DNA from: Mesonia aquimarina
GTDB lineage: Bacteria > Bacteroidota > Bacteroidia > Flavobacteriales > Flavobacteriaceae
DNA: 64,000 bases
Direction: 5' to 3'
Assembly (NCBI RefSeq): GCF_003667275.1
Contig: NZ_RCNV01000002.1
Span: 310,001-374,000 of the forward strand
Shown piece by piece: positions 1 through 18,004 of this stretch. The position numbers were made by a program, and so were the translations under genes. Within the stretch, counting starts at the first letter, position 1. Each line of letters opens with the position of its first letter. The notes beneath the pieces were generated by a model that did no database searches, had not been told where the DNA came from, and saw only the letters and a list, made by a program, of their open reading frames with translations.

Positions 1-1008
1 TTAGCAATCGATGAAAGTATTCATAATAATAAACGTATTGTTACCTTTACACCCGTACTTCGTGAACGCTTAGGGCATCATATTCACGGGGAAATTTGGG
101 CCGATAAAATAAAGCAAACCTTAGCAGAAAAAGGCTTACTAAATCGTGAAATTCATATCATTAGTGCCAATATGCATAGTGTTATGAATACGCTTTATGC
201 GCCTATAGCTTTAAAGGAAGAATTAAAAAATAAATCGAGAGAAGAACTTTACGAAGCCTTAAGTAACAGCGCCAACGGTAAGTTGCGAATGAAAGTTCAG
301 AAAACGGCTTTAGAAAATGGAATGGTTTATATAGAAGACCAGAGTGGTGCCAATATAAATGTGCAACTTTTTGATACTTCAAAAATAAATCATCCGGAAA
401 AACGATTTCAAGCAGATATTGAAAATGCTCCTGTTTTAATTGTGATGGACTATGCTTTTGGTGAGCAAGCTTACGAAACCATGGATGAATTGCTAAAACC
501 TTACGCAACCATCGAAGAAAAAGTTCATCTACCGGTTAACTCAATCTCAATTATGGGTAAAGCGGGAATTTTGGAAGGTAAAAAAGGAGATATTATGATT
601 CCGAATGCACATCTATTTGAGGGAACAGCAGATAACTATCCGTTTAAAAATAAGCTTAAAAAGAAACATTTAGCCGGCCATGGAATTCAAGTATATGATG
701 GAGCTATGATAACCGTCTTAGGAACATCACTTCAAAATAAAGATATTTTACGCTTTTTTCATGATTCTACCTGGAATGTTATTGGCTTAGAAATGGAAGG
801 AGCACATTACCAAAAAGCAATACAAGCAGCTTCACGCTTACGTGGAAATATAAAAAACAAAGTAAAGGTACGATACGCATATTACGCTAGTGATAACCCT
901 TTAGAAACCGGAAGCACATTAGCTTCAGGTGGATTAGGAACTACAGGTGTAAAACCAACCTATTTAATTACAGAAAAGATTTTAGAACAAATTTTTGAAA
1001 ACGAATGA
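1..1008 (+). CDS. Nucleoside-phosphorylase-like protein, 5'-truncated by window edge
   Basis: The reading frame is open from base 1, so the N-terminus lies outside the window; the first internal ATG at 172 is not the real start. The visible 335 residues end in a segment with the motif GLEMEGAHY, which resembles the substrate-binding EMEG stretch of purine nucleoside phosphorylases. A glycine-rich stretch near TGSTLASGGLGTTG follows. No signal peptide or membrane segment is visible. The stop overlaps the next start by 4 bases (ATGA), so it is cotranscribed with the Wzz-like gene. The exact substrate cannot be read, and the family may be an uncharacterised Bacteroidota group with a phosphorylase-like fold. 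Confidence 0.6.
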   Translation, partial: LAIDESIHNNKRIVTFTPVLRERLGHHIHGEIWADKIKQTLAEKGLLNREIHIISANMHSVMNTLYAPIALKEELKNKSREELYEALSNSANGKLRMKVQKTALENGMVYIEDQSGANINVQLFDTSKINHPEKRFQADIENAPVLIVMDYAFGEQAYETMDELLKPYATIEEKVHLPVNSISIMGKAGILEGKKGDIMIPNAHLFEGTADNYPFKNKLKKKHLAGHGIQVYDGAMITVLGTSLQNKDILRFFHDSTWNVIGLEMEGAHYQKAIQAASRLRGNIKNKVKVRYAYYASDNPLETGSTLASGGLGTTGVKPTYLITEKILEQIFENE

Positions 1009-1973
1009 GCACAAAACAAACAACCAAAGAAGAAACAGATGTAATTGATCTGTACGAACTTACTAAAAAAGTTTTTTATAAAACACTACAACTTTTTTTT
1101 AGGTTTATTAATTTCTTGATTAGGAATATAGTTATAATAGCAATATTAATTGCTATAGGTGGCGGCTTAGGCTATTTTCTAGATAAAAATAAACCTGATA
1201 TTTACAAAACAGAGTTTATTGTTGCAACAGATTTTGATGCCGCTGAATATTTATATAAGTCGATTGAAGAATTAAAATTTGGGCTTAAGCACTATAACGA
1301 TTCTTTTATGAACGAATTGGAAATACCTAAAGAGAAAGCTGCTAAAATAAACTTAGACATAGAGCCCATTGTCGTATTAAATGAACTTAATAAAGAAGAA
1401 CAAGCTTATGCAGAGTTTTTAGACGAAAACATTGAAATTGAACAGAAAGAAAGATTGTATATCAATAGTGTAAAACGTCATAAGCTTACATTATACCATC
1501 CTGATGATATTGATTCTAAAGAGTACTTGACAAAAATAATTAAATATCTTAGGAAAAATGATTATTACCAAGACCTTTATTCATTATATGAAAAAGAAGC
1601 AAATCGCCAATATAAAAGCACAACAAATCTTTTAAGTCAAATTGACTCATTAGTTATAAACTACTCAAACAGTTTTAGACAAGAAAAGTATACCACTCCA
1701 GGGGTTACCTATTTTAACTCTGGAACGGTTATGGATCTAGGAATGGTTCTAGAAAACAGAACGCTTATTCAAGACGATGTTAACCGTCTTTTAGAAAATA
1801 CAATAACAAGTACAGAGTTTTTAAAAATTATTGATAAGGGCTCTCCAAGAAACTTAGAGCATTTTAATCCATTTTCTCGTAAAATGTATTTTTATCCAGT
1901 TCTATTAGTTCTTATTTTTATTTTAATTAAATTAATTAGAGTGATTTATAGAAAGGCTAAAGCACTATCATAA
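1005..1973 (+). CDS. Wzz-like polysaccharide chain-length / export membrane protein
   Basis: This 322-residue protein has a membrane segment at about residues 37-58, a long charged and helical middle, and a second membrane segment at about 295-315 followed by a short basic tail. That layout matches Wzz-type polysaccharide co-polymerases, which set chain length in Wzx/Wzy pathways from the inner membrane. There is no cytoplasmic kinase domain, so it is not a full Wzc tyrosine autokinase. It starts inside the stop of the preceding gene and opens the polysaccharide locus. The assignment rests on topology and context rather than a strong motif. Confidence 0.6.
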   Translation: MSTKQTTKEETDVIDLYELTKKVFYKTLQLFFRFINFLIRNIVIIAILIAIGGGLGYFLDKNKPDIYKTEFIVATDFDAAEYLYKSIEELKFGLKHYNDSFMNELEIPKEKAAKINLDIEPIVVLNELNKEEQAYAEFLDENIEIEQKERLYINSVKRHKLTLYHPDDIDSKEYLTKIIKYLRKNDYYQDLYSLYEKEANRQYKSTTNLLSQIDSLVINYSNSFRQEKYTTPGVTYFNSGTVMDLGMVLENRTLIQDDVNRLLENTITSTEFLKIIDKGSPRNLEHFNPFSRKMYFYPVLLVLIFILIKLIRVIYRKAKALS

Positions 1974-2251
1974 AAGCTTTAATTTTTACAAAAAAATGCC
2001 TTAAAAATCACCAAAAAATTTTAATTAAGCATATATGAGAGGTAGCGTTTGTAAACACTTATAGTTTAACTACTATGAAGACGCTAAATAACTTCATAAC
2101 AGGATGTTAAATACTTCTAAAATTTAAATTAATTTGTGAGTAGAAACCTCAGACTAGCAAAAAAGTTTACTAGAATTGTATAAACTTAACAAACTCATTT
2201 TATCCAATACTAGATCTTTGTACTAGTAGTGATATTTAAAAGAAAATTATT
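1974..2251. other. Intergenic region with one stem-loop
   Basis: This 278-base AT-rich gap has no convincing small ORF. It holds a nested stem-loop at 2043-2086 (listed separately). A weak promoter-like GATCTTTG lies at 2213-2220, one base off the Bacteroidota -7 box at its first position, with no clear -33 element. Confidence 0.4.
2043..2086 (+). other. Nested stem-loop between Wzz-like gene and cysQ
   Basis: The outer arms TAGCGT (2043-2048) and ACGCTA (2081-2086) pair perfectly. The inner arms ATAGT (2061-2065) and ACTAT (2072-2076) also pair, extended by CTT/AAG across a one-base bulge. No T-run follows, so it is not a classical terminator. It could be a leader structure or an operator. 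Confidence 0.35.
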
Positions 2252-3010
2252 ATGGATTTAAACCAGTTCCTACCTTTAATTATTGATGCCAGCCGTGATG
2301 CCGGAATCAAAATCATGGAAGTCTACAATTCTGAAAGTTTTGATGTAGAACAAAAGCAAGATGACTCCCCTTTAACTCGCGCCGATAAATTAGCAAATCA
2401 AGCAATTACTAAGCGTTTACAAGAAACAGACTTCCCTATTCTTTCTGAGGAAGGAGCAAAAATCCCTTATGAAGAACGAAAAGATTGGGAATATTTTTGG
2501 ATGGTAGACCCCTTAGATGGAACTAAAGAATTTATTAAGCAAAATGGTGAGTTTACCGTGAATATTGCATTAATTCATAAAAATGAACCGATTTTAGGTG
2601 TCGTTTATGCACCGGCTTTAGATAAAATTTATTTCGGAGGAAAAGGACTTGGAGCCTATCGTTCAGAAAATATGGATCCACAAGACCAACTGAAGTTAAT
2701 TAAGCACGAAAAAGGGCCAACAAGAATAGTAGCTTCACGCTCGCATTTAAATAAAGATACAGAAGATTATATTAATCAATTTAAAGAGGCAGAAACGGTT
2801 TCTATGGGAAGCTCTTTAAAGTTTATGCTACTTGCCGATAGCGAAGCAGATATTTATCCACGTTTTGCGCCTACAATGGAATGGGATACTGCTGCTGCTC
2901 ATGCCGTTCTAAAAGGTTTAGATCTTGAAGTAATGAGTATGGAAGATGATAAACCTTTACGTTACAATAAAGAAAATCTTTTAAATCCGTATTTTTTAGT
3001 AAAACGATAA
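2252..3010 (+). CDS. cysQ: 3'(2'),5'-bisphosphate nucleotidase CysQ
   Basis: CysQ hydrolyses 3'-phosphoadenosine 5'-phosphate (PAP) to AMP and belongs to the inositol monophosphatase superfamily. The Mg-binding residues are visible: SEEG at about 65-68, the motif DPLDGTKEF at 86-94, and EWDTAAAHAV near 211-220. The 252-residue length fits CysQ. PAP is the by-product of sulfation with PAPS, so its place at the head of a polysaccharide locus could suggest sulfated products, but no sulfotransferase is visible here. The ATG at 2252 is the natural start. Confidence 0.9.
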   Translation: MDLNQFLPLIIDASRDAGIKIMEVYNSESFDVEQKQDDSPLTRADKLANQAITKRLQETDFPILSEEGAKIPYEERKDWEYFWMVDPLDGTKEFIKQNGEFTVNIALIHKNEPILGVVYAPALDKIYFGGKGLGAYRSENMDPQDQLKLIKHEKGPTRIVASRSHLNKDTEDYINQFKEAETVSMGSSLKFMLLADSEADIYPRFAPTMEWDTAAAHAVLKGLDLEVMSMEDDKPLRYNKENLLNPYFLVKR

Positions 3011-3032
3011 TTTAATTATTTTTTTGCGTGCT

Positions 3033-4493
3033 ATGTTGAACAAAATAAAATCATTTGCTTTTTCTTCAAAGGACGCAAAAGAGGTTACTATAAATTCATT
3101 TTGGTCTGTTATTGGAACAGTCATTTCTAAAGGATTGGCCTTTTTGGGATGGGTGGTTGTTGCTAATTTTTTGGGTAAAGAACTAAATGGTGAAATTGGT
3201 ATAGTGCGTTCAACCATTAACCTATTTCTTATTTTCGTTGGATCTGGATTAGGGCTCACAGCAACACGTTATATATCCAAATATAAAAATGAAACGAGAA
3301 CCAAAACAGCTAATATTGTAAGCTTAACACTTTTAACAACACTTATATTTGGACTATTTATTAGCTTACTGTTCTATTTTTTTTCATCTAGTCTTGCAAA
3401 AACTTTAAATGCTGTAGGTCTTACTGAAACTTTAAAACTCGGAGCATTTTTATTATTCTTTGGAGGTTTAAACGGTTCTTTAAAAGGATGTTTAGAAGGT
3501 TTTCAGTTATTTAAAGCAGCAGCAATCATTAATATTATATTTAGTGTGGCTTTATTTTTCGGCTTGTATTTTGGAGCAAAATTTAATAGCGTAGAAAGTA
3601 CATTTACAGGTTTTTTATTAGCTACAATTCTACACTTTATTCTTCAAAGTATTTTACTTTGGTTTGAGTTAAAAAGAAGAGCCATTAAACTTACAGTTCG
3701 TTTAAAAGAGGAAATACCAGTTCTTTCAAAATTTACAATTCCTGCAATTTTAAGTGGAGCAATGGTAGTGCCTTTTAAATGGTTAGCTGAAGCTTTGCTG
3801 GTAAATCAGCCCGAAGGATATATAGAAATGGGTTTATTTGCAGCTATTATCTTATTTCAGACTTTACTATATATGATTGCAAATACTCTAAACGCTCCTT
3901 TAATTACATTGATGGCTAAGAAAGGAGAAAATTTAAAAATTGATAAAATTAGTTTAATATTACCTTGGGCAATAGGTGTTTTTGGAGCTCTACCATTTAT
4001 CTGTTTTCCAGAACTATTTGGGTTAATTTTTGGTGACGAATATTTGAAGGATGCTAATTTTTTTAGTACCTATTTAATAGTTCTGCTGTTTACAATCGTA
4101 ATGCTTTACAAGCAAGGTATTGCTAGGATTATGGTTCTTAACGATCTAATGTGGTTTAGTTTTTTAAGTAACTTGATTTGGGGTTTAAGTCTTACAGGAA
4201 GTTTCTTTCTTTTAAAAGATAGTGGAGCTGTTGGTCTTGCTTGGGCATACTTAATAGCCTACACTATCAATGTAATTATTGTGATACCATTATACTTAAA
4301 GCGAAAAATTATACCAAGATTTTTGGTATTTTCTCCTTATGCTATTAGTTTATGGATAGGCGTTTTAGGTTTAGCTTTTATTTGTTTTTATTTTGAAATG
4401 AATTTATTCATAAAAGCGGCTGTAGCCTTAATAAGTAGTTTTATTTTTGTATTCTTATTTTACAAACTTTTCAACTTCTCTAAAAATGCTTAA
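3033..4493 (+). CDS. Wzx-type polysaccharide flippase
   Basis: About 486 residues with some 12-14 predicted membrane spans, typical of the MATE-like polysaccharide transporter superfamily (Wzx). It would flip undecaprenyl-linked repeat units across the inner membrane. I chose the ATG at 3033; an in-frame TTG at 3024 would add three residues. It sits 22 bases after cysQ and its 3' end overlaps the pyruvyl transferase start by 8 bases. It is one of two flippase-like proteins in the window; the other is at 42315. Confidence 0.85.
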   Translation: MLNKIKSFAFSSKDAKEVTINSFWSVIGTVISKGLAFLGWVVVANFLGKELNGEIGIVRSTINLFLIFVGSGLGLTATRYISKYKNETRTKTANIVSLTLLTTLIFGLFISLLFYFFSSSLAKTLNAVGLTETLKLGAFLLFFGGLNGSLKGCLEGFQLFKAAAIINIIFSVALFFGLYFGAKFNSVESTFTGFLLATILHFILQSILLWFELKRRAIKLTVRLKEEIPVLSKFTIPAILSGAMVVPFKWLAEALLVNQPEGYIEMGLFAAIILFQTLLYMIANTLNAPLITLMAKKGENLKIDKISLILPWAIGVFGALPFICFPELFGLIFGDEYLKDANFFSTYLIVLLFTIVMLYKQGIARIMVLNDLMWFSFLSNLIWGLSLTGSFFLLKDSGAVGLAWAYLIAYTINVIIVIPLYLKRKIIPRFLVFSPYAISLWIGVLGLAFICFYFEMNLFIKAAVALISSFIFVFLFYKLFNFSKNA

Positions 4494-5598
4494 AAAAGGA
4501 AGTATAGATATATTGGTAAAAGGAGCTTATGGTGCAAAAAATTTTGGGGATGATGCCCTTCAATTTTTTTTAACTGAATGGTTTAAAAAGAACCATTATA
4601 AAGTTGCTTTTATAACAAAAAAATCAAAATATTTAAAAAAAATGTTTCCTAATACTCGTCTTATTTCTCAAGACCAGGCATTTAATGTTGATGCTAAAAC
4701 ACTTATTTTAGGTGGAGGAACACAGTTTTTTGCTTTCAATAAAATTAGTTTTAAAGAAAAATTAGCTTTTTATATAAAGCACCTTTCCTTTAAAAAATTG
4801 CTTTTTACTTTTCAGAAAAGAGTTTTAAAACAAAAAATGCGAGCTAATAAAAGCATTGGTCTGGGTTTAGGCTTGGGACCATTTCAAGAAAACACACCAC
4901 AACTTACAGCAGCAAGCAATAGTATAGCAGCGTTAGATGAAGTATTCACAAGAGATCGTTTAAGTTTTGAGTTTGCTAAATCTTTAAATAGTAAAGCATT
5001 AAAATTTACCGATATTTGTTTTCTTCCAGGAATTATAGACTTTTCTAAATTTAAACAGCCCAAAACAAAGATAAAAAAAGTAGGGATAATTGTTAGAGAT
5101 TGGAACTTGTCCTCTGAAGGTAAACAATATTACAAAAAACTTCAGCAAGAAGTAGAGCGTTTAAAAAGCCTAGGTTACTTACCTACTTATATTTTATTTA
5201 AACCTGAATCTTATTGGCAAGAATATTTAGAAAATCAACAGGAAAAATACATTGTTTGGAATCCTGAAAAGATGAAAATAGTAGATTTTCTTAAAGAATT
5301 AATGGAATTTGATTTAATGATAAGCGCTCGTTTTCACGGAATTATTTTTGCTTCACTTTTAGGTATTCCAAGCATTAGTATAGGTATAGAGCAAAAATTA
5401 AAAGTTGTAGGTGAATTTTTTCCTAATTCTTTACAAGTTTGGCCCTATCCTTTTTCAGAAGATCTTATAGAAAAAGTAAATGACGTACAAAAGAACTATG
5501 CTCAAGTGCAGAAATCCCTTCAGCAAGAAACAAACAACAATCAAATTTTAGCTCAAAATATGTTTAACGAGCTAAAAAAAGTAATACAAAATAATTAA
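4486..5598 (+). CDS. Polysaccharide pyruvyl transferase family protein
   Basis: This 370-residue protein shows the family hallmarks: an N-terminal GAYGAKNFGDDA glycine-rich motif and a C-terminal SARFHGIIFASLLGIP segment with the conserved R-x-H-G. Members transfer pyruvate from phosphoenolpyruvate onto a sugar as a ketal, giving the polysaccharide negative charge. The ATG at 4486 overlaps the flippase stop by 8 bases and starts right at the conserved region. An upstream ATG at 4447 would add 13 residues inside the flippase gene and is less likely. Confidence 0.85.
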   Translation: MLKKGSIDILVKGAYGAKNFGDDALQFFLTEWFKKNHYKVAFITKKSKYLKKMFPNTRLISQDQAFNVDAKTLILGGGTQFFAFNKISFKEKLAFYIKHLSFKKLLFTFQKRVLKQKMRANKSIGLGLGLGPFQENTPQLTAASNSIAALDEVFTRDRLSFEFAKSLNSKALKFTDICFLPGIIDFSKFKQPKTKIKKVGIIVRDWNLSSEGKQYYKKLQQEVERLKSLGYLPTYILFKPESYWQEYLENQQEKYIVWNPEKMKIVDFLKELMEFDLMISARFHGIIFASLLGIPSISIGIEQKLKVVGEFFPNSLQVWPYPFSEDLIEKVNDVQKNYAQVQKSLQQETNNNQILAQNMFNELKKVIQNN

Positions 5599-5605
5599 TA
5601 AGCTT

Positions 5606-6595
5606 TTGAAACTTCTATTTTATATCACGCAATTTGATCAAGTAAAGGATGCTACACAGTTCTATTTAGAAACTATTTGTGAAGCGCTTACAGGTTCTGC
5701 TAAAATGCAAATGACTGATAAAATAAGTGATTTAAAAGATGCAGACTACGTAATGACTTTTACGGTAACCGATTTTTTTAGGCTAAAGTTAAAGAACCCA
5801 AAAATAAAGATAATTCATTGGTTTCAAGGAATTATCCCTGAAGAGGCGCGCTTAAAAACCAAAAATAGAAAGCAATACTTTGCATTTAGTATGTTAGAAC
5901 GTTTTACGTTAAAGTTTGCTATTTTTAACTTTTTTGTTTCTGATGCGATGAAGAATCATTACAGAAAAAAATACGCATATAAAAAGAAAAACTATTTTAT
6001 AATGCCCTGCTTCAATGGTAAACTTCAGCATAAAAGAGCTTTTTTCGAAAAAGATTATACAAACCCAGATTTTGTTTATATAGGCTCTATGGCTACTTGG
6101 CAATGTGTAGATACTGTTTTGAGTGTGTTTAAATCGGTAAAGGATAAAATTCCGAAAGCACGTTTAACACTATTAACAGGACAGCAAGAAAAAGCAGAAA
6201 AAAAATGTGCAAAGTATAATGTAGAAGCAAGTATAGGCTACGTGCCCTTAGAGAATATAGATCAGGAATTATTGAATTATAAATATGGTTTTCTATTGCG
6301 TGATGATATAAATGTAAACCGTGTGGCCACTCCCACAAAAATGAGTACTTACATGGCTAGTGGAGTTGTTCCTGTTTACACGGATGTTATTGAAGCTTTT
6401 TCGGTTTTTAATTCATTAAACTATCAAGTTAAAATTAACAATAGTACCGTTACAGATATAGCTGAAAAGATTATCAATTTTGAAAAACAAGCGATTGATA
6501 ATGAAATTTTATATGAAGAATATAAACAAGTTTTTGAGAATTATTATAGCAAAAAAAAATATATCAAAAATATAAAGGAAATTTTTAAAGCTTAA
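5606..6595 (+). CDS. Glycosyltransferase, GT4-like
   Basis: A 329-residue protein starting at TTG, 7 bases after the pyruvyl transferase. The second half is GT-B-like: FVYIGSMATWQ begins the C-terminal Rossmann domain, and KMSTYMASGVVPVYTD matches the nucleotide-sugar-binding region where GT4 enzymes keep an E-x7-E-like element, here weakly conserved. It probably adds one sugar of the repeat unit at the cytoplasmic face of the membrane. Donor and acceptor cannot be deduced. Its stop shares a base with the next start (TAATG). Confidence 0.75.
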   Translation: MKLLFYITQFDQVKDATQFYLETICEALTGSAKMQMTDKISDLKDADYVMTFTVTDFFRLKLKNPKIKIIHWFQGIIPEEARLKTKNRKQYFAFSMLERFTLKFAIFNFFVSDAMKNHYRKKYAYKKKNYFIMPCFNGKLQHKRAFFEKDYTNPDFVYIGSMATWQCVDTVLSVFKSVKDKIPKARLTLLTGQQEKAEKKCAKYNVEASIGYVPLENIDQELLNYKYGFLLRDDINVNRVATPTKMSTYMASGVVPVYTDVIEAFSVFNSLNYQVKINNSTVTDIAEKIINFEKQAIDNEILYEEYKQVFENYYSKKKYIKNIKEIFKA

Positions 6596-7809
6596 TGAAT
6601 TCAATATTATCAATAAAAAGAGATACTTTGGATAAAGCATTTTTGCTTTTTCCTGTTATTTTGATTTTCATTTCTGAGATTTTACACTTTATATTTCCTT
6701 CTATAGGAGTTGCAGTAAAGTTTTTGGGTCTAATTTCTATGGTTGGTATTAGTATTCTAAAAGGAAAATTTAATACTAATTCCCTAATAATTTTTGCCTT
6801 TTTAATTCCGGTTTTAATTTATCATTACTTTGTTTCGTTTAGCTATAAAGCAGCCACAGAAGAGTTAGTTCGCTACTGTTTCCCGATAGTTATTTTGTTT
6901 TATAGTTATACCTTAAAGGACCAGTTTAAATTGATTTTTAATTTTTTTCTTGTTTTCTTCTTTATAAATCTATTCGCACAAATAGTTAATTATATTTTAT
7001 GGCAAAAAGGCGTAGTTTTATGGTTTTTTGATACACATGAAAACGGATCATATACTATTCCTTCTGTATATGGTTTTATGCGGGCTACAGGAGTTTTAGG
7101 ATTCTTCAGTCTTTTTGGTTTTTTCTATTTATTAATGTTTTTTATTATAGAAACCTATTATAAAGGAAGGTTTAAGGTTGTTTTATTGTTACTTTCTTTA
7201 TCAGGGCTTTTTGCAAGTATATCTTATAAAGGAATTGTAACTTTTTTAGTATTGATTTTTGTGTTTTCTAAAAAGAAACTACAAATAATTAGTGGGTTTA
7301 TTTTTTTAGCTGCAATTCTCGTCTTCTCATTTCCTGATAAGGCTTTAGAGTTTTATGAAGGAGCTTTATTAAGAACTGAATTATACATTTCTGAAGGGAA
7401 TTCTGCCAGAGCAGAATCGTATAGAGTTATGGCAAACCATACGGGTTTATTAGGAGAGGGTTTAGGTAGTTTTGGCGGTCCGGCTTCTGTAGACTACGGA
7501 TCTCCATTTTATAGAGAAGTAAATTTTAATTGGTTTGGATTAAAATTAGGAACTACAGACACTTATTTTCCACATCTATTTATTGAAGTTGGTTTAATAG
7601 GAGCTTTGTTATATATACTTTTCTTAATGTCACCACTTTTAAAGAAGAGAATTTCTGTTCGTGCATTACGGATTTTAGGCATTATTTATTTTGCCTTATT
7701 TTTTGATGCTGCTTTTTCATATTCCTTAAATAATACGGGTTATTTAATGGTTGCCTTAATTTGGGTTTTTCCAGTAATTTATTATTCTCAACAAAATGAA
7801 AAAGCCTAA
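6595..7809 (+). CDS. Wzy-like polysaccharide polymerase, multi-spanning membrane protein
   Basis: This 404-residue protein is almost wholly hydrophobic with about 10-11 membrane spans. A large extracytoplasmic loop runs from about residue 255 to 320 and contains GEGLGSFGGPAS and NWFGLKLGTTDTYFPH. The layout fits Wzy O-unit polymerases, which join lipid-linked repeat units at the periplasmic face. Wzy proteins share little sequence, so this rests on topology and on its place between two glycosyltransferase genes. Confidence 0.7.
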   Translation: MNSILSIKRDTLDKAFLLFPVILIFISEILHFIFPSIGVAVKFLGLISMVGISILKGKFNTNSLIIFAFLIPVLIYHYFVSFSYKAATEELVRYCFPIVILFYSYTLKDQFKLIFNFFLVFFFINLFAQIVNYILWQKGVVLWFFDTHENGSYTIPSVYGFMRATGVLGFFSLFGFFYLLMFFIIETYYKGRFKVVLLLLSLSGLFASISYKGIVTFLVLIFVFSKKKLQIISGFIFLAAILVFSFPDKALEFYEGALLRTELYISEGNSARAESYRVMANHTGLLGEGLGSFGGPASVDYGSPFYREVNFNWFGLKLGTTDTYFPHLFIEVGLIGALLYILFLMSPLLKKRISVRALRILGIIYFALFFDAAFSYSLNNTGYLMVALIWVFPVIYYSQQNEKA

Positions 7810-8830
7810 AAAAATTTTAATGGTTGGTAATTTACCGACTGAAGACTCACGTTCTATTGGAGGAGCAACGGTTTTAACGCAACGTATTTTTGAGTTTATA
7901 AAAACCAAAGCAACAATAGATCTTTATTTTTTAACAATCAGGAAGCATTGGAAACCTAAAGCCCAAATTATAGACTACTTATGGTTTCCATTTCGGTTTC
8001 TGTGGTATCAAAAAAGTTATAATCATATAAGTTTTCATGCCTCAACAGATTTTCACCTTACCGTTGGACCTATCGCAACAGGATTTTGCAGGTTATTTAG
8101 AAAAAAATATAGCTATCATTTTTTTGGTGGAAATTTTCATAAAAAATTTCAGCAGTTACCTAAGTTTTATCAAAAATGGATAAGAGCTACTATTTTAAAA
8201 GCGGATACCGTTTTTATGGAAACCTTAGAAATGATTCGTTATTTTGAAGCTGATGATATCAACTTAGAATGGTTGCCTAATTCTAGAAAAACACCGCCGG
8301 TTAATACACCTCCTAAAAAGTTTGAAAAGCGTTTTGTTTTTATTTCTAGAGTTACACCAACCAAAGGTATAGATACAATTATTGAAGCAGTAAAAAACTT
8401 ACCACGAGACTATATAATTGATATTTACGGACCTTTAGATGAGCGTTTTTATAAGAAAGAGCATTTTGATAAGTTTAAAATAAATTATTACGGAAGTATT
8501 TCTGCAGATGAGGTTATTCCAACACTTTTAAGATATGATGTTTTACTTTTACCTACATTTCATCCAGGAGAAGGGTACCCGGGCATTGTTATTGAAGCTT
8601 TATCGGTTGGTTTACCGGTAATAAGTACAAAATGGAATGCTATAGAAGAATTAATTACAGATGAGATAAGCGGAAAAATAATTCCTATAAAATCCAGCCA
8701 AGCCTTAACCAAAGCTATACAAAGCTTTACACCAGAAAATTATCCCCTTTTTAGTAAAAATGCCTTAGATAGTTTTGCTAACTTTAATTCAGATTTGGTT
8801 TTTAAAAGAGTTGTTGAGAGTTATGATTAA
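7796..8830 (+). CDS. Glycosyltransferase family 4
   Basis: A 344-residue GT-B enzyme. The C-terminal domain opens with FVFISRVTPTKGIDTIIEA, and the donor-binding motif EGYPGIVIEALSVGLPVIS carries the two Glu of the E-x7-E signature. N-terminal residues such as GGATVLTQRIFEF form the usual glycine-rich acceptor loop. It overlaps the polymerase gene by 14 bases and the next gene by 8, so it is translationally coupled. It likely adds a hexose or pentose with retention of configuration. Confidence 0.88.
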   Translation: MKKPKKILMVGNLPTEDSRSIGGATVLTQRIFEFIKTKATIDLYFLTIRKHWKPKAQIIDYLWFPFRFLWYQKSYNHISFHASTDFHLTVGPIATGFCRLFRKKYSYHFFGGNFHKKFQQLPKFYQKWIRATILKADTVFMETLEMIRYFEADDINLEWLPNSRKTPPVNTPPKKFEKRFVFISRVTPTKGIDTIIEAVKNLPRDYIIDIYGPLDERFYKKEHFDKFKINYYGSISADEVIPTLLRYDVLLLPTFHPGEGYPGIVIEALSVGLPVISTKWNAIEELITDEISGKIIPIKSSQALTKAIQSFTPENYPLFSKNALDSFANFNSDLVFKRVVESYD

Positions 8831-9245
8831 TGCCTATTCTTTTTATCAAGTAGCACATAAGCTGTATCAAAAGAAAATTCCTATTCTTCCGAAGCTTATA
8901 AAATTACTTTGTTTTTTAATTTATAATTCGAGTATTCCGTACGAATGTGTGCTAGGAAAAGGAACGCGTTTTGCTTATAGCGGAATTGGAGTTGTACTTC
9001 ATAAAAGAACCGTAATGGGAAAAAACTGTATGATTGGTGCGCAAGTAACCGTTGGCGGAAAATCAGGCCATTATGAAGTTCCTACAATAGGAGATAATGT
9101 TTACTTGGCAACAGGTTCAAAAATTTTAGGACCTATAAAAATAGGCAATAATGTAACCGTTGGTGCTAACGCAGTAGTAATTAATGACATTCCCGATAAT
9201 TGTGTGGTTGCAGGAGTCCCGGCAAAAATCATTAAAAAAGGATGA
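8823..9245 (+). CDS. Hexapeptide-repeat O-acetyltransferase, serine-acetyltransferase-like
   Basis: A 140-residue left-handed beta-helix protein. Hexapeptide repeats run from about residue 50 (FAYSGIGVVLHKRTVMGKNC) to the terminal VAGVPAKIIKKG, as in CysE-like and capsule acetyltransferases. The short length and lack of the CysE N-terminal helical domain point to polysaccharide O-acetylation rather than cysteine synthesis. The ATG at 8823 overlaps the GT4 stop by 8 bases. An earlier ATG at 8775 would add 16 residues read through the GT4 gene and is unlikely. Confidence 0.85.
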   Translation: MINAYSFYQVAHKLYQKKIPILPKLIKLLCFLIYNSSIPYECVLGKGTRFAYSGIGVVLHKRTVMGKNCMIGAQVTVGGKSGHYEVPTIGDNVYLATGSKILGPIKIGNNVTVGANAVVINDIPDNCVVAGVPAKIIKKG

Positions 9246-10491
9246 TGAAGGATTTTTTGAAGTTTCATTTACGGCATAACTTTTTGTTAAAAAAAGAAAT
9301 AAAAAAAATAGACAGCCACTTTCAATTAGATGCTTTAGCAGAAAAACAAAACAAAGCTTTTTTAAAACTTATAAAGGCTGCAAAAAAACCAAGTTTTATC
9401 CAGAATTTTATGAAAAAAATGGAGTAGATATTTGTCAAATTCATTCGTTAGACGATTTAAAAAAATTACCTATTCTTCAGAAAAAGCATATAAAAGAAAA
9501 TCCTTCAGCCTTCTTAGCTCAAAAGAAATATCTAGCAAAAACAAAAGCTTACACTAGTGGAAGTACCGGTTCACCGTTAATGGTTTATCGCGATTTTAAA
9601 TCAATTTTAATAGAAAATGCTTACGTTTGGTGGTTCAGGCAACGAGCCGGATTAGCTATTCAAGATAGAAAAATTTCTTTGCGAGGAGATTTAGATAGAA
9701 GCAAGCTTTTCTATTTTGATAAAGTTGCAAATACACTTTTTATTTCAAGTTATCATTTAAATAGAGAAAAATTTCCGCAGATTGTAGAGAAAATAAATCA
9801 GTTTCAACCCAAAGCTTTATTGGCTTACCCAAGCTCTGTATTTACATTAGCGGGTTTGTTAGAGGAAACAAATAAAAAATTAACTATTCCGCTAGTTTTT
9901 ACAAGCTCTGAAAGCCTATTGGCTTTTCAGCAAGAAAAAATTCAGCAGTATTTTCAGTCAAGAATTTTTGATTGGTATGGGACTGCAGAACGTACAATTG
10001 CTTTATATTCAGAAAACGGAAAATATTATGAACCGCCTTTGTATTCTTTCAATGAATATCAGAAAGATAAAATAATTTCTACTGGTTTTATAAATACACT
10101 TTTTCCGATAATTCGCTATCAAGTAAATGATGTAATTCAGCATCAAAATAAATATGATGAAAATCATAAATCACTAGAGATTGAGGGAATTCACGGAAGG
10201 ATAGAAGATTATATTTTACTTCCTGATGGTTCAAAAATCGGCAGAATGGATGTAGCTTTTAAAAATATTAAAGGAATAAAAAAGGCACAACTTATTCAAC
10301 ATTCATTACAAAAAGTAGAGGTGTTATTAGTTACTGAAAATTTTACTTCCTCTGAGAAAATAAAACTTCAGCAAAACTTAACAAATAGATTAGGAAAACA
10401 AATAGAAATTTTTATTAACGAAGTTGATGAAAATAAACTACAACATGCTGAAAATAAAAAGTTTAAATTTGTAATCTCTAAATTGAGTTAA
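9242..10491 (+). pseudogene. PaaK/CapK-like adenylate-forming ligase, frameshifted at an A7 tract
   Basis: Two frames together make one protein of about 416 residues. Frame one (9242-9427) gives an N-terminus ending in LKLIKAAKK and then hits a stop. The -1 frame, entered at the run of seven A at 9382-9388, continues as TKFYPEFYEKNGVD and carries the AMP-binding motif YTSGSTGSP at about 9550-9577. It then stays open to 10491. The family joins carboxylates to CoA or acceptors through an adenylate and occurs in capsule loci as CapK. The tract could be a lesion, a phase-variable switch, a -1 slippery site (A AAA AAA in the correct frame) or a homopolymer sequencing error. The start overlaps the acetyltransferase stop (ATGA). 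Confidence 0.8.
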
Positions 10492-10501
10492 AAAAGATAA
10501 G

Positions 10502-11470
10502 TTGAAAAAAAAGCTTTTTTTATTAGTTTTAATTCTAACGCAATTTTTTATTTCTTGTGAAGATGATTATATGGAAAAAGAATTGCCCGAAGTAAAAGTA
10601 TTAAACTCATTAGGTGTTTTTTCTATAGCTATAGAAGATAATCAACTTATTTTAGCGCCAAAACACACAAAGATTACGGCTCCTTTATTGTACCAAGATG
10701 ATATAAATAATTTTAATTTCAATGCATTATATCGAATAAAAAATGAAGAGGGTGAAATGGGGTATTTTCGTTTTGGTTGGATAGAATATAAAGATTCTGA
10801 AAATATACTTTCTAATATAAATTGGTTTTACACAAATCCGCCTACAACTTGGGGTTTTGAAGATTTTACTATAGAAACTGTTGAGGTCGCTTCAACTCAG
10901 AAAGGAAATTTAAAAGTTTGTACGATTGGTGATAGTCAGACGTGGTGGAGTAAATCTTCACTTTTAAGAAAAAAGATGAATGATATTTATCCTGATCTTT
11001 ATTTCACCGGAAGCAACACAGATATTTATGGATTTCCTCATGAAGGAGAAGGAGGAAATGACACCAAAAAAGTACTCGAGCGAATGGGAAAAATTCCCGA
11101 AGCAGACTTCTATACCTTATTAATTGGAACAAATGATTGGAAAAACGATATTTATAAGAGTACAGAAAATATAAAAGAGATTATTAATTATCTTTTAAAA
11201 AAATATCCTTCATCAAAAATTATTTACCTTAGTCCCCTGCCTACAATAAATGGAGAAAGAGATCGCTTTAATCAAGCTTTAAAGTTAAATGTGATGAAAT
11301 TTGCAGAAAGAAATCCGAAAATATTATCATTTTCTTTAGGCGAAAAAATGCGTGAAAATAAAAATTGGGCAACAGATTATTTTAAAGAAGATGGTTTGCA
11401 CCCAAACGAAGAAGGGGTAAAGTTTATGGCAGAAAACATTACCTCTTTTATAAAACAAGAAACGGATTAA
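10502..11470 (+). CDS. SGNH/GDSL hydrolase lipoprotein
   Basis: A 322-residue protein with a lipoprotein signal peptide ending in FFISC (Cys19). The C-terminal domain has SGNH blocks: TIGDSQTWW with the nucleophile Ser145, LLIGTNDW with the block III Asn, and EDGLHPN with the Asp-x-x-His pair. Such enzymes remove or transfer acyl groups, often on surface glycans. The start is TTG at 10502, 10 bases after the ligase gene. The N-terminal 130 residues form an unassigned beta-rich domain shared with the next gene. It probably acts in the periplasm or at the outer membrane on the polysaccharide made here. Confidence 0.85.
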   Translation: MKKKLFLLVLILTQFFISCEDDYMEKELPEVKVLNSLGVFSIAIEDNQLILAPKHTKITAPLLYQDDINNFNFNALYRIKNEEGEMGYFRFGWIEYKDSENILSNINWFYTNPPTTWGFEDFTIETVEVASTQKGNLKVCTIGDSQTWWSKSSLLRKKMNDIYPDLYFTGSNTDIYGFPHEGEGGNDTKKVLERMGKIPEADFYTLLIGTNDWKNDIYKSTENIKEIINYLLKKYPSSKIIYLSPLPTINGERDRFNQALKLNVMKFAERNPKILSFSLGEKMRENKNWATDYFKEDGLHPNEEGVKFMAENITSFIKQETD

Positions 11471-11482
11471 TCTTTATAATCT

Positions 11483-12427
11483 ATGAAATTTATTTCAAAA
11501 AAATTAATCGGATTCACATTTTTAGGATTCCTTGTTTATCTAACCATAGACTTCCTTCAAAAGAAGGAAGAAAATTTTTGGCAATTTAATTACAATTGGG
11601 AGGAAATAGAAACTGTACAAAAACTTGGTAAAGTAAGCCTAGACTCTGTACAAGTTAACTATTTAGAAATTTCGACCGATAAAAATGTTTCTACTGAAAA
11701 TGTTCACACAATTGCCTTAGGAGAAGGGGCAAACAAGACCTATTTTAATTTTGAAAACTCCTATGTTAACAATCAAAAGATTAAGTTTACAGGTGGTTTT
11801 TGGGTGCTAAATGATCCTATAAAAAATAAAGAAAATGTTGAAGCAGAATTGATTAATTTACCTTTAAAACAAACCGGGGAACTAAAAATTAATATAATAA
11901 CAGATTCCCAGCTTTTATGGCGAGGGGGAAGAAGCTTCAGAAAATGGCTTAAAGAAAAAAATAGTAATCTTTATTTTGTAGGTGATAAAATAGACTTATT
12001 CGGATTTCCTTATAACGGTGAAATTGTAAACACTACAGAGAAAACTTTAAACAACAGAAGTAATATTCCTAAAGCAGATCTCTATGTAATTTCATTAGGA
12101 ACTCATGAGTCGCAAAGAACAATTCAAGAAAGTGTTAAGAATTATAAAAAGCTGATGAAAGAATTACAGCAAAAAAATAATTCAGCTACTATATTTATTG
12201 TTAATGCGCCGCCCTCTTTAGATAAAAGAAGAAACACATATAACAAAAAATTGAACAAAGCCTTAGCGACAATAGCAAATGCAGAACAAGTACAAATAAT
12301 AGATTTTTACAAATTAGTAGAAAATAATTATAAAAACTTGTTGGTTCAAGATCAAATTCATTACCAAAGCGAAGCCTATAAAATGTTGGTAAATCACATT
12401 AATAAGCAAATCCATGGAATTAAGTAA
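11483..12427 (+). CDS. Divergent SGNH hydrolase-like paralogue
   Basis: A 314-residue paralogue of the preceding protein with the same two-part layout, anchored by an N-terminal membrane segment (about residues 8-24) instead of a lipobox. The blocks have drifted: GDSQ is replaced by TDSQ, GTND by GTHE (the block III Asn is lost), while DQIHYQ retains Asp-x-x-His. It may be an acyltransferase-like variant or a non-catalytic partner. Pairs of related SGNH/AlgX-like proteins are known from acetylation systems of exported glycans, but the match is by analogy. It overlaps the next gene by 14 bases. Confidence 0.7.
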   Translation: MKFISKKLIGFTFLGFLVYLTIDFLQKKEENFWQFNYNWEEIETVQKLGKVSLDSVQVNYLEISTDKNVSTENVHTIALGEGANKTYFNFENSYVNNQKIKFTGGFWVLNDPIKNKENVEAELINLPLKQTGELKINIITDSQLLWRGGRSFRKWLKEKNSNLYFVGDKIDLFGFPYNGEIVNTTEKTLNNRSNIPKADLYVISLGTHESQRTIQESVKNYKKLMKELQQKNNSATIFIVNAPPSLDKRRNTYNKKLNKALATIANAEQVQIIDFYKLVENNYKNLLVQDQIHYQSEAYKMLVNHINKQIHGIK

Positions 12428-13631
12428 ATTAAAAATAAATTTTTTTAATTGGAGTTTAGTATTGCTTTTTATCACCTTGCCAATGCCCAAATATAGCTTG
12501 AGCACACAAGCTTTAATTGTATTGGCTATTTCATGGCTATTATTAAATTCATTTAAAGAAAAAGTTAGATTATTAAAAGAACATTCTTCGAGTATATTAT
12601 TATTAAGCTCACTTTATGGAGTAATGTTAGTTGGAATGATTTATACTGAGAATTTAGATCAGGGTCTTGAACAACTGAAAGACAAGCTTCCTTTTTTAAT
12701 TATTCCCATAATAATAGGGACTACACAAACATTAACCAGTGATAATAAATTTAAGTTCATTAAAATTTTCAGTATTTCTGTTGTATTAATGGCTTTGTTT
12801 GCCTTAGCAAAAGCTTGGTATATTCATGCATTAGGAATGGGTGATTATTTTGTATATGATAAACTATCCATTTTGTTAAATAAGCACACCACATACTATT
12901 CGCTGTATTGTGTAATCGCAATAAGCTATTTTTTATATGATTTACTTCAATTAAAAAAAACAAATCTGCTTTTTTCAATAGTAGCCATCATCATTTTGCT
13001 TTTTTTCATTTACTTGTTAAGTGCAAGAATTGCTATAATAGCACTAATTGTGGTTGCCATTTATTACATAAAAATGCGAATAACCCACCGTAAGCAAAAG
13101 GTCTTTTTAAGTCTGTTAGTTATAGGTATATTATCAAGTACATTACTTTTTAGTAGTAATTATACTGCACGTTTTGAGTCGATATCTAAAAACCCAAATG
13201 AATTAACAGAAAACAATGAATTTAATACAAGGCTAATACATTGGAAATCTGCTTTAGAAACATTAAATACATCAAGTTATATATTTGGTAAAGGTACTGG
13301 AGATGGTAAAGAAAACTTATATCAGCAATATTTGAAAAACGATTTTACTATCGGCTACCTTCAAAAATATAATGCGCACAATCAATATATAGAATTTTTA
13401 TTATCAAATGGTTTACTTATTATAATAGCGTATTTTTGCCTGCTATTAGCAGCATTAATTTATGCCATCAGATTTAACGATTTGTTTGGTGTTTTAGTGG
13501 TTTTATTATTTATGATGTATTCTATTACAGAATCCATTTTAGAACGGCAATCAGGTGTATTAATTGTAGCACTCTTGTGCAGCGTGATACATTTTAGTAA
13601 TAAAGAATTGTTGAATAAAAAAAATAGATAA
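12414..13631 (+). CDS. O-antigen ligase / Wzy_C family membrane protein
   Basis: A 405-residue protein with about 11-12 membrane spans and a periplasmic loop around residues 260-320 that includes FNTRLIHWKSALETL and the GKGTGDG and NAHNQYIEFLLSNG motifs. These match the O-antigen ligase/polymerase family, in which the loop carries conserved Arg and His. It could attach the chain to a lipid acceptor while the protein at 6595 polymerises it, or the reverse. Translation begins inside the 3' end of the SGNH-like gene. Confidence 0.85.
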   Translation: MELSKLKINFFNWSLVLLFITLPMPKYSLSTQALIVLAISWLLLNSFKEKVRLLKEHSSSILLLSSLYGVMLVGMIYTENLDQGLEQLKDKLPFLIIPIIIGTTQTLTSDNKFKFIKIFSISVVLMALFALAKAWYIHALGMGDYFVYDKLSILLNKHTTYYSLYCVIAISYFLYDLLQLKKTNLLFSIVAIIILLFFIYLLSARIAIIALIVVAIYYIKMRITHRKQKVFLSLLVIGILSSTLLFSSNYTARFESISKNPNELTENNEFNTRLIHWKSALETLNTSSYIFGKGTGDGKENLYQQYLKNDFTIGYLQKYNAHNQYIEFLLSNGLLIIIAYFCLLLAALIYAIRFNDLFGVLVVLLFMMYSITESILERQSGVLIVALLCSVIHFSNKELLNKKNR

Positions 13632-13637
13632 AGCATT

Positions 13638-14825
13638 TTGCATACTACAGATTTTAAACAAAGCTTTACAAACTTGAAGCACTTTTGTGAAGCAGAAGAC
13701 TTTAAGAGTTGGGATCCGTACGATGGACTTAACAGTAATTTATTTCAGCAATTACCAATTTTTAAAAACACTCGTTTCTTTCGATTAGCTTGGATTCAAC
13801 TTTTTAAGCGATCACCTATAAATGTTAGAAAAATAGTAGGCGTTAAAAAAACACATAACCCAAAAGGCTTGGCGCTTTTTTTAATAGGGTATTGTAATTT
13901 ATATAAGCAAGAGCCTAAACAAGAGTATTTAAATTATATTAAAAAATTAACTAAATTAATTTTAGTTAAAAAAACTAAAGGATATTCTGGATCTTGTTGG
14001 GGGTATAATTTTGATTGGCAGGCTCGTGCTTTTTTTCAACCAAAACATACACCAACAGTTGTTGCAACTTCTTTTGTCGCAGAAGCTTTAATCGCTTCAT
14101 ATAAGATAACGGGTGATTTAGAAGTATTAAGAACCTTAAAAAACATTGTAAAATTCATAACAGAAGATTTGAATAAAACCTATGATGATGATGGTAATTT
14201 TACGTTGTCCTATTCTCCATTAGATAACACGCAAGTTTTCAATGCTGGATTGTTGGGTGCAAAAACGTTGTGTTTATTATATGAATTTTTAAAAGAAGAA
14301 GATTTATTGGCTTTTTCAAAAAAAATAGTTCAATATGTGTGTAATAAACAACAGGAAAATGGAGCTTGGGCATATGGAACATTACCTTTTCATCAATGGA
14401 TAGATAACTTTCATACGGGCTACAATTTGGAGTGTATTCATATTTATCAAAAAGTATCTGGCGACTTATCATTTCAGGATAATTTAACGTCGGGAACAAA
14501 TTATTACCTTGAAACTTTTTTTACAAAAGAAGGAATGGCGAAATACTACAATAATCAGACATATCCCATAGATGTACATGCTCCTGCACAATTGATAATC
14601 ACGTTAAGTAAACTAAAAATCTTAAAAAAGCATAAAGCTTTGGCAGATCGAGTACTGAACTGGACAATAGAACACATGCAATCATCAAAAGGCTATTTTT
14701 ATTATCAAAAAAGAAAAGATATTTCCTCTAAAATTCCATATATGCGTTGGGCACAAGCGTGGATGTTTTACGCATTTTCTTATTATTTTTTAGATACTCC
14801 AGAAGCAAAACTTCATGATTCCTAG
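13638..14825 (+). CDS. Alpha/alpha-toroid protein of polysaccharide locus, function unknown
   Basis: A 395-residue soluble protein starting at TTG. Its helical repeats alternate with short conserved turns (WGYNFDWQAR, PTVVATSFVAEAL, GAWAYG, HTGYNLECI, RWAQAWMFYAFSYY), the pattern of six-hairpin or (alpha/alpha)6-toroid enzymes and of terpenoid-cyclase-like folds. Aromatic and acidic residues in the turns could bind a glycan. No signal peptide is visible, so a cytoplasmic role is likely. It might be a glycan-processing or epimerase-like enzyme; I cannot assign a reaction. It overlaps the next gene by 11 bases. Confidence 0.65.
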   Translation: MHTTDFKQSFTNLKHFCEAEDFKSWDPYDGLNSNLFQQLPIFKNTRFFRLAWIQLFKRSPINVRKIVGVKKTHNPKGLALFLIGYCNLYKQEPKQEYLNYIKKLTKLILVKKTKGYSGSCWGYNFDWQARAFFQPKHTPTVVATSFVAEALIASYKITGDLEVLRTLKNIVKFITEDLNKTYDDDGNFTLSYSPLDNTQVFNAGLLGAKTLCLLYEFLKEEDLLAFSKKIVQYVCNKQQENGAWAYGTLPFHQWIDNFHTGYNLECIHIYQKVSGDLSFQDNLTSGTNYYLETFFTKEGMAKYYNNQTYPIDVHAPAQLIITLSKLKILKKHKALADRVLNWTIEHMQSSKGYFYYQKRKDISSKIPYMRWAQAWMFYAFSYYFLDTPEAKLHDS

Positions 14826-15570
14826 CATTAACATCCTAAATACAAAAATACATAACCTTAGCATGCAAGAAACTTTGCAGTTAATAACTCAGTGTATTCA
14901 ACAGAAAGAACAAATTCACCATACCGTTGTTAATGCCGGAAAAATTGTAGCGCTTCAAAAAGATCTGGAGTTGCGGCAAAGTGTAAATGAAGCTGATTTA
15001 ATAAACGCCGATGGACAAGCTGTTATTTGGGCATCTAATGTATTAGGCAAACCCTTAAAAGAGCGTGTTGCCGGAATAGATCTGTTTACTAATTTATTAG
15101 CGCTAGCAAAAGAAAAAAAATACAAGGTTTATTTACTGGGAGCAAAGCAAGAAGTGTTGAATGAGCTCATAAAGACAATTAAAAATACCTATGGTTCAGA
15201 GATTATAGCGGGACAACATCACGGTTATTTTTCAACCGAAGAAGAAGCAGAGCTTGTAGAGAATATTTCAAAAAGTGGTGCAAATATGTTATTTGTAGCC
15301 ATGAGTTCCCCTAAAAAAGAGATATTTTTGCATAAACATAAAAAAGCTTTAAAAGCTGTTAACTTTATTATGGGTGTTGGTGGTAGTTTTGATGTAATCT
15401 CAGGGAAAACCAAAAGGGCACCTTTATGGATGCAGGATTCAGGTTTAGAGTGGTTCTATAGATTTATACAAGAACCACGCAGAATGTGGAAAAGATACCT
15501 TATAGGAAATACGAAGTTTATATCTTTGGTGCTCAAAGAGAAATTAGAATCTAAAGACGAGGCAAACTGA
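14815..15570 (+). CDS. WecG/TagA/CpsF family glycosyltransferase
   Basis: A 251-residue protein with the family core: [14 protein letters not shown] near the N-terminus, [24 protein letters not shown] and a later [19 protein letters not shown]. TagA/WecG (GT26) enzymes transfer the second sugar, often a ManNAc or uronic acid type, onto an undecaprenyl-PP-linked primer, so it likely acts right after the initiating enzyme at 18005. The ATG at 14815 overlaps the toroid gene, and its stop overlaps the next start by one base (TGATG). Confidence 0.9.
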
Positions 15571-16985
15571 TGGAAATAAAAAATATTTGTTGCATAGGCG
15601 CAGGTTATGTAGGGGGTCCAACAATGGCCGTTATTGCGCAAAAATGCCCGCATATCAACGTTACAGTGGTCGATATTAATGAAGCAAGAATTCAAGCCTG
15701 GAATAACGACGATTTATCGAAGTTGCCGGTCTATGAACCAGGTTTAGATCACGTGGTTAAAGAAGCAAGAAACAGAAACTTGTTTTTTTCTACTAAGGTA
15801 GATCAAGCTATTGATAAAGCAGATATGATTTTTATTTCTGTAAATACGCCAACCAAAACCTATGGTAAAGGTAAAGGAATGGCAGCAGATCTAAAGTATA
15901 TAGAACTTTGCGCTCGCCAAATTGCTCGTGTTTCAAAAAGTGACAAAATTGTTGTCGAAAAATCAACACTTCCGGTAAGAACAGCATCAGCTATAAAAAG
16001 CATCTTAGATAATACCGGAAACGGAACAGATGTAAAATTTCAGATATTATCTAACCCGGAGTTTTTAGCTGAAGGAACTGCAATTGAAGATTTGCTACAT
16101 CCGGATCGTGTATTAATAGGGGGCGATATTTCTACTGCTGAAGGAAAAGAGGCCATAGATGCCTTAGTGAATATTTACGCAACCTGGGTTCCTGAAAAAC
16201 AAATCTTAACAACCAATGTTTGGTCTTCAGAACTTTCTAAACTTACCGCAAACGCATTTTTAGCACAGCGTGTTTCTTCTATAAATTCTTTATCGGAATT
16301 ATGCGAAAAAACAGAAGCTGATATTAATGAAGTGGCCAAGGCTATCGGAATGGACTCTCGTATTGGGTCTAAATTTTTAAAAGCTTCAGTTGGCTTTGGT
16401 GGTTCTTGTTTTCAGAAAGACATTTTAAACCTTGTTTATATAGCCAAAACCTACGGATTAAATGAAGTAGCAGATTATTGGGAGCAAGTGCTGTTGATGA
16501 ATAATCACCAAAAAAGAAGGTTTGCTCATAATATTATCAGTACACTTTTTAACACCGTTTCTGGAAAGAAAATCGCTTTCTTGGGGTGGGCATTTAAAAA
16601 AGACACTAATGATACGCGAGAATCTGCTGCTATTTATGTTGCTGATGAATTATTAAATGAGCAATCAAAAGTTTCTGTATTCGATCCTAAAGTGCAAAAA
16701 GAGCAGATGTATACCGATTTAGATTATTTGAATACACGCTCTAGCGAAGAAAATAGAGCGGGATTAAGCGTATTTAAAGATCCTTATGAAGCTTGTAAAG
16801 ATGCACACGCTATTGCCATTTTAACGGAATGGGACGAATTTAAAACATACGATTGGCAGAAAATTTACGATACCATGCAAAAACCGGCTTTTCTTTTTGA
16901 CGGAAGAGGGATTCTCAATATTCCTGAATTAGAAAAAATAGGCTTTGTGTGTTATAAAATAGGAAGCAGTAAGCATAATTATTAA
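15570..16985 (+). CDS. ugd: UDP-glucose 6-dehydrogenase
   Basis: Oxidises UDP-glucose to UDP-glucuronate with two NAD+. The N-terminal Rossmann motif [18 protein letters not shown] is at 8-25, [11 protein letters not shown] at 161-171, and the catalytic Cys280 lies in [10 protein letters not shown]. At 471 residues and with the motif [18 protein letters not shown] it resembles the longer, eukaryote-like dehydrogenases rather than the 390-residue E. coli type. Its product feeds the UDP-xylose synthase 24 bases downstream. Confidence 0.95.
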
Positions 16986-17009
16986 AAAAGCGACAGCGAT
17001 TGCAAAAAA

Positions 17010-18002
17010 ATGGGTGTAAAACGAATTTTAATTACCGGTGCTGCGGGTTTTTTAGGCTCGCATTTGTGCGATAAGTTTATTGCAGAAGGCTACCATGTTA
17101 TTGGTATGGATAACCTAATTACCGGCGATTTAAAAAACATATCACATTTATTTAAGCATGCTTCATTTGAGTTTTATCATCATGATGTCACTACCTTTGT
17201 ACACGTTCCCGGACGTTTAGATTACATATTACATTTTGCTTCACCCGCGAGTCCAATCGATTATTTAAAAATACCGATTCAGACATTAAAAGTAGGTTCG
17301 TTAGGAACGCATAACTTATTAGGCTTGGCAAAAGAAAAAAACGCTCGAATTTTAATTGCAAGCACTTCTGAAGTTTACGGCGATCCGCAAGTTCATCCGC
17401 AAGATGAAAACTATTATGGTAATGTAAATACCATTGGTCCAAGAGGGGTTTACGATGAAGCGAAGCGTTTTCAAGAATCCATTACCATGGCCTATCATCG
17501 GTTCCATGGGTTAGAAACCAGAATAGCTCGAATTTTTAATACCTATGGTCCGCGTATGCGTTTAAATGATGGTCGGGTAATTCCGGCATTTATTGGTCAA
17601 GCGCTTCGTGGAGAAGATTTAACAGTTTTTGGTGATGGGAGTCAAACACGTTCTTTTTGTTATATAGACGATCAAGTTGAAGGAATTTTTCGTTTGTTGT
17701 TAAGCGACTATGTTTTACCCGTAAATATTGGTAATCCTGAAGAAATTAGCATTAAAGAGTTTGCTGAAGAAATAATAGCGCTAACAGGAACTTCACAAAA
17801 AATTGTGTATAAAGAATTGCCTAAAGACGATCCGCTGCAGCGTCAACCAAATATTGCTAAAGCTAGAGAAATATTAAATTGGAAACCAACTGTAGATCGT
17901 TCTGAAGGGATGAATAGTACCTATACGTATTTTAAAAACCTTTCTTTAGAAGAACTGCAAAAAAAGGAGCATAAAGATTTTACAGATCATATCAGAAAAT
18001 AA
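17010..18002 (+). CDS. uxs: UDP-glucuronate decarboxylase (UDP-xylose synthase)
   Basis: An extended short-chain dehydrogenase of 330 residues that turns UDP-glucuronate into UDP-xylose through a UDP-4-keto intermediate, keeping NAD bound. Visible are [11 protein letters not shown] (NAD loop), the catalytic region [10 protein letters not shown], the Tyr-x3-Lys pair in YDEAKR, and [10 protein letters not shown] with the substrate-binding Arg typical of Uxs. Its position after ugd makes the pathway explicit. A UDP-apiose or 4-keto-pentose variant is less likely. Confidence 0.92.
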
Positions 18003-18004
18003 AT

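Follow-up and report, generated by a model that had tools for sequence, protein, structure and literature searches.

Losses of a single base from runs of A have been reported in surface-polysaccharide genes of other bacteria. In Vibrio cholerae O1 a change from A8 to A7 at nucleotide 108 of wbeL was phage-selected, the tract being reportedly conserved in 37 O1 strains, and since the remaining O antigen disappeared when the A7 tract was altered silently, the authors conclude that the tract is decoded leakily (PMC3441752). Phage-escape mutants of Acinetobacter baumannii carry poly-A losses in gtr6, both A9 to A8 and A8 to A7, which result in frameshifts (PMC10249906). During transcription, insertions have been found to prevail in A/T runs and to rise steeply with run length; the available part of that account states that no case of a transcription error restoring a frame was observed (PMC5574713).

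The gene considered here lies in a stretch of 64,000 nt (G000:C18:310001-374000), hereafter called the window, from the draft genome (3.28 Mb, 25 contigs) of a marine bacterium of the Mesonia group. From ORFs and Pfam matches we delimited a polysaccharide gene cluster at 1005..19354 (+), which holds genes for a flippase, a pyruvyl transferase, glycosyltransferases, an O-antigen ligase-like protein, WecG, UDP-sugar enzymes and a sugar transferase; the cluster ORFs at 1005-1973 and 6595-7809 gave no Pfam match. Within the cluster a PaaK-like ligase gene is directly preceded by a hexapeptide acyl/acetyltransferase gene (8823..9245, +, PF00132), the stop of which overlaps the ligase start, and directly followed by a GDSL-type esterase-like gene (10502..11470, +, PF13472) that is 59 and 58% identical to the corresponding genes of L003 and L004. 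The order of transferase, ligase and GDSL-like gene recurs in the three nearest relatives, L003, L004 and L005 (in L005 the GDSL-like gene was judged by eye), while L006 has a glycosyltransferase-like gene upstream of the ligase instead of the transferase. Two GDSL-type esterase-like genes are adjacent after the ligase, at 10502-12427 of the window, and a similar gene adjoins the ligase in L003 and L004 as well. A DUF6909 gene at 172-1008 of the window was suspected to be a second split gene, its match beginning at profile position 288, but the frame continues leftward without a stop and the gene is simply cut by the window edge.

The ligase gene itself is split over two frames by a one-base shift. 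The first frame (9242..9427, +) comprises 61 codons and ends with a TAG at 9425-9427; it may start at 9242 or at 9245, the second ATG, at which the homologues of the two nearest relatives begin. The frames meet in a tract of seven A at 9382..9388 (+), where the zero frame reads GCA AAA AAA CCA, and the second frame (9388..10491, +) holds the remainder of the ligase, 367 aa, with no further stop between 9388 and the TAA at 10489-10491. The motif TSGSTGSP, which we take to be of the AMP-binding type, is located at 9553..9576 (+), and the ORF counted from the first ATG, GTG or TTG of the second frame (9580..10491, +) starts past it. The first-pass annotation had joined frame 2 up to 9388 and frame 1 from 9388 into one protein, had seen TSGSTGSP intact in the second part and had read the seven A in frame as A AAA AAA. 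We confirmed these observations, the coordinates being exact, and together the two frames align to one protein, which is 415-417 aa long in L003, L004 and L005. The N part is 83, 77 and 69% identical to L003, L004 and L005 over 48 aa, and the C part, encoded by the second frame, is 77, 73, 54 and 43% identical to four Mesonia-group homologues, the first three values being those of the three nearest. As both parts are conserved, the break is not explained by chance.

PaaK/CapK-like adenylate-forming ligases are marked by a Ser/Thr/Gly-rich ATP-binding motif. Such a motif is present as TSGSTGSP, and S105, G106 and G109 of L013, an intact orthologue, are invariant in an alignment of 29 rows, made up of 28 of the 33 full-length homologues and the window row. 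By curated profile cut-offs the second frame is not assigned to the PaaK/CapK-like ligases; NCBIfam PaaK-type and related models matched it with E from 1.2e-12 to 7.7e-5, far below their cut-offs, and PF00501 with E 0.0017 and 17.7 bits against a cut-off of 29.9. The fold does point to this family. A model of L013 (pLDDT 88.1, pTM 0.82) was used in a fold search, where the top 18 PDB matches were BT_0428 and PaaK chains, the best being 4r1m (E 9.3e-22, TM 0.65, rmsd 7.3); the best sequence-profile match, 4r1l (E 6.2e-19), agrees with this. Judging from the family and the gene order, the intact enzyme is likely to activate a carboxylic acid which the adjoining acyltransferase would add to the polysaccharide. 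A literature search joining CapK, phenylacetate-CoA ligase and polysaccharide found no paper. Records of Mesonia, Bizionia, Labilibaculum, Marinifilum and Chitinophagaceae contain homologues of the ligase, yet the second part in the window is matched by Pfam AMP-binding only below the cut-off of that profile.

Further we read the site of the junction in 35 homologues, and all 35 pass it in one frame, so a frameshift is not conserved among them. These were taken from 40 loci, where L028, L045 and L050 were left out as not extending to the site and L051 and L052 as remote; it should be noted that L013, L014, L015 and L047 denote the genes also labelled L003-L006. Full length, 415-431 aa, was found in each of the 33 homologues measured. 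Within the genus 9 of 16 genomes, our own included, had a match, and of the eight others four are close, with 44-78% identity, and uninterrupted, and the remainder are remote. Within the family three of 397 sampled genomes, again with our own included, reached E 1e-60, and the two others are without an internal stop. A first scan of genome contigs with a single protein as query gave no match. Where the window has GCA AAA AAA CCA, the three nearest relatives have GCT AAA AAA ACT (L003), GCA AAA AAT ACA and GCG CAA AAA ACA. As these codons differ from each other and from those of the window, the A tract is not kept in relatives, though L003 also has seven A at the site, in frame. A kept tract, as expected of a phase-variable gene, was thus seen neither in the codons of the nearest relatives nor in the DNA at the site of the 35 homologues.

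The first-pass annotation had regarded a run of seven A in such a gene as a typical place for on/off switching. We do not find this borne out, as the length of the tract is ordinary here and one genome of the species was compared. On the sense strand of 455.5 kb of compared coding DNA, runs of six to nine bases number 1,517 for A and 634 for T, and with 430 A7, 128 A8 and 11 A9 runs among them the A7 of the ligase is not unusually long for the genome. We counted 282 in-frame copies of the heptamer A_AAA_AAA over 148,583 distinct codons in matched, stop-free stretches, roughly one in every 530 codons, and 45 of these copies are followed by C. The pattern GCAAAAAAAC is found 74 times in the genome vs 43 times for a control, the same pattern read backwards. 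An A7 or an A_AAA_AAA heptamer alone is unremarkable in this genome, and in such A/T-rich genomes an A-run heptamer alone must not be taken as a switch.

To judge decay we counted, in the 367 aligned codons that follow the junction, the changes unique to each sequence. Unique amino acids number 27 in the window vs 26 and 41 in the two nearest relatives. By codon position (1, 2 and 3) the unique changes number 28, 13 and 44 in the window, and 23, 20 and 55 and 42, 19 and 87 in the nearest relatives; the third-position share is 52% in the window, slightly below the 56 and 59% of the relatives. There is no excess of changes after the junction, which speaks against an old pseudogene, and therefore the break is recent, or an error, or the gene is still used by means of leaky decoding or switching.

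The frequency of such breaks was estimated by a frameshift scan of 1.597 Mb of the own genome against about 1.2 Mb of relatives, with relative ORFs of at least 120 aa, at least 40% identity (45% in one run) and a best match covering at least 40% of the ORF. Matches were obtained for 561 of 986 relative ORFs, covering 455.5 kb of own coding DNA, of which 268.8 kb lie in this contig. The scan flagged three frameshift rows, where two were judged true and one was a start-extension artefact, along with seven in-frame-stop rows, six near alignment ends and one a weak partial match. The breaks judged true are those of the ligase and of a gene for an outer-membrane beta-barrel; in each, an A/T run falls one base short of the frame. 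This second broken gene, with PF14905 in both halves, is located outside the window at G000:C18 about 254058-256465 (L068:14058-16465, -), on the same contig as the ligase; the short run, of T, lies at about C18:254.46 kb, and the gene of a relative reads on. The reverse scan, which took in 440 of 1,320 own ORFs and 457 kb of relatives, revealed no true break; its five frameshift rows were two upstream extensions and three in one repeat gene beside an N gap, and its 14 stop rows were near alignment ends except for two weak matches below 47% identity. It should be noted that the base rate is not blind, because the stretch of a relative that revealed the break of the ligase (G012:C45) was chosen for holding the ligase orthologue. 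The scan rules out a genome full of homopolymer errors and is compatible with a low error rate. Two breaks against none in the relatives are too few to conclude from, though the difference leans slightly to an error or an unusual isolate.

From these results we suggest that the ligase carries a real and recent loss of one base in its A run, making it an off or leaky allele; we favour this over the other readings and put its probability at roughly one half. Slipped-strand mispairing at replication would have removed one base from the run near the 5' end of this gene of the exopolysaccharide cluster. Ribosomes would then read the 61 codons and stop at the TAG, both of which are seen in the DNA, releasing a short peptide without the ATP-binding loop. 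As the junction falls after residue 48 of the L013 model, just past its third helix (residues 31-47), this product should be without nearly all of the enzyme, and its conserved part would correspond to the first three helices of the model. The allele would be off, or else slightly leaky on account of its A AAA AAA tract, where occasional -1 ribosomal slippage or an A added by RNA polymerase would restore the frame; such leakage is plausible.

The recent loss accords with the unshifted frame of all 35 homologues and the full length of all 33 measured, with the single open frame after the junction and its lack of excess changes, and with the scan, in which two breaks were judged true against the 1,517 A and 634 T runs counted above. 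It also has precedents, as one-base losses from A8 and A9 in surface-polysaccharide genes are reported for wbeL (PMC3441752) and gtr6 (PMC10249906). The first-pass annotation had offered phase variation, slippage or a lesion; the split gene and the tract were rightly recognised, and of the three a lesion (or else a base-calling error) fits best, programmed slippage being unsupported and phase variation not demonstrated.

The strongest rival is a sequencing or assembly error, where the genome is truly intact and one A was dropped in base calling. We regard this as possible but distinctly less probable than a recent loss. In the assembled sequence such an error would look identical to a real loss, and the absence of decay suits it equally, the C part being as constrained as in the relatives. 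The break is found in one draft genome and in none of the 35 homologues, and the second A/T run one base short, in the same contig and with no counterpart in the 457 kb of relatives, counts for an error and against a recent loss. In addition, Antonov et al., in the part of their study available, expect unclustered frame transitions validated by BLASTp to be sequencing errors and not genuine indels (PMC3711429). On the other hand, among the 430 A7, 128 A8 and 11 A9 sense runs the A7 of the ligase is the sole one at a break, which makes frequent undercalling of such runs by the sequencing technology improbable.

More doubtful is an evolved contingency locus, in which slipped-strand switching between A8 and A7 would turn the ligase on and off and thereby alter the surface polysaccharide. 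The kind of gene would suit this, as would the tract near the 5' end and the otherwise intact reading, and Antonov et al. count an A/T run of at least 7 close to a frame transition among the possible signs of phase variation (PMC3711429). The tract is however not kept in the three nearest relatives, even with the in-frame A7 of L003, and runs as long as this one are common in the A/T-rich DNA compared. We keep switching as an outside chance because of the good published parallel in V. cholerae, where phage selected the wbeL change from A8 to A7, although the authors report, in the part of the paper available, that they could not demonstrate reversion of the A7 allele (PMC3441752). By analogy with that allele we speculate, with equally little confidence, that phage or another selection on the surface might favour A7 clones, in which leaky decoding of A AAA AAA would give a low level of ligase and a polysaccharide that is sparsely modified and not absent. 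The second gene with a one-base-short run encodes an outer-membrane barrel, which would fit selection on the cell surface if the contingency reading were true.

It seems very improbable that the junction is a site of programmed recoding, at which -1 ribosomal frameshifting or transcriptional slippage would yield a short and a long product. The first-pass annotation had proposed the heptamer as a -1 slippage site, and a heptamer of the type X_XXY_YYZ is indeed in the right phase at the junction, GC[A AAA AAA]C, with the shifted frame giving the conserved protein; moreover, A_AAA_AAA is a proven -1 motif together with a stem-loop in an insertion-sequence family (PMC4066793). The comparison does not support the proposal, as none of the 35 homologues needs a shift, the tract is unkept in the nearest relatives and the heptamer is common in the genome (282 in-frame copies, 45 of them then C). 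Pseudoknots apart, folding of the 82 bases after the tract (9389-9470) gave a z of -0.35, with 67 of 200 shuffles as good, hence no downstream stimulator stood out there. Judged by eye, the Shine-Dalgarno-like motifs described in the accessible part of PMC4066793 are absent at the distance used there, and that source gives about 0.3% shifting for its three best V_VVA_AAG heptamers. The slippage case of tssM1 in Citrobacter rodentium has a run of A11 (PMC4256274).

Two separate genes, the second translated independently by re-initiation, are scarcely credible. Conceivable starts in the second frame are an ATG at 9580 and ATT, a rare start, at 9430, 9439 and 9472. Between 9388 and 9580, however, this frame has no ATG, GTG or TTG, and 9580 itself is some 150 bases downstream of the stop; translation from 9580 would leave out TSGSTGSP, and the homologues are single proteins.

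A real A7 allele, as implied by a recent loss, would be a natural case of a one-base homopolymer loss in a surface-sugar gene of a marine flavobacterium, and would make it simple to test whether leakage through A AAA AAA yields enough enzyme to matter in Bacteroidota. Should the shift be a base-calling error, the ligase gene is intact and its annotation needs correcting.

Compared with known systems, the closest solved fold to the model of the intact orthologue is that of the putative acyl-CoA ligase BT_0428 (PDB 4r1l/4r1m) and of PaaK (2y27/2y4o), from which the ligase differs with an identity of about 20%. Like the ligase, tssM1 of C. rodentium has an A run before the stop of an interrupted gene, where slippage restores the frame, but its run is A11 and not A7 and its transcriptional frameshifting was proven by experiment (PMC4256274). 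Among the slipped-strand capsule mutants of A. baumannii, those of gtr6 share the one-base poly-A loss in a surface-polysaccharide locus; the difference is that these are phage-escape laboratory mutants, in a glycosyltransferase (gtr6) and a flippase (wzx), where the wzx change is a gain from T9 to T10 (PMC10249906). The wbeL allele was established by phage selection, an LPS phenotype and a locked tract, whereas the ligase is known from one genome and its tract is unkept in relatives (PMC3441752). As far as the available part of that report describes wbeL, an O-antigen modification gene with a putative ATP-binding domain, the ligase nevertheless appears closely analogous to it, both being surface-polysaccharide genes with one A lost near the 5' end, and in both an early stop leaves a short peptide, of 42 aa in wbeL and 61 in the ligase (PMC3441752).
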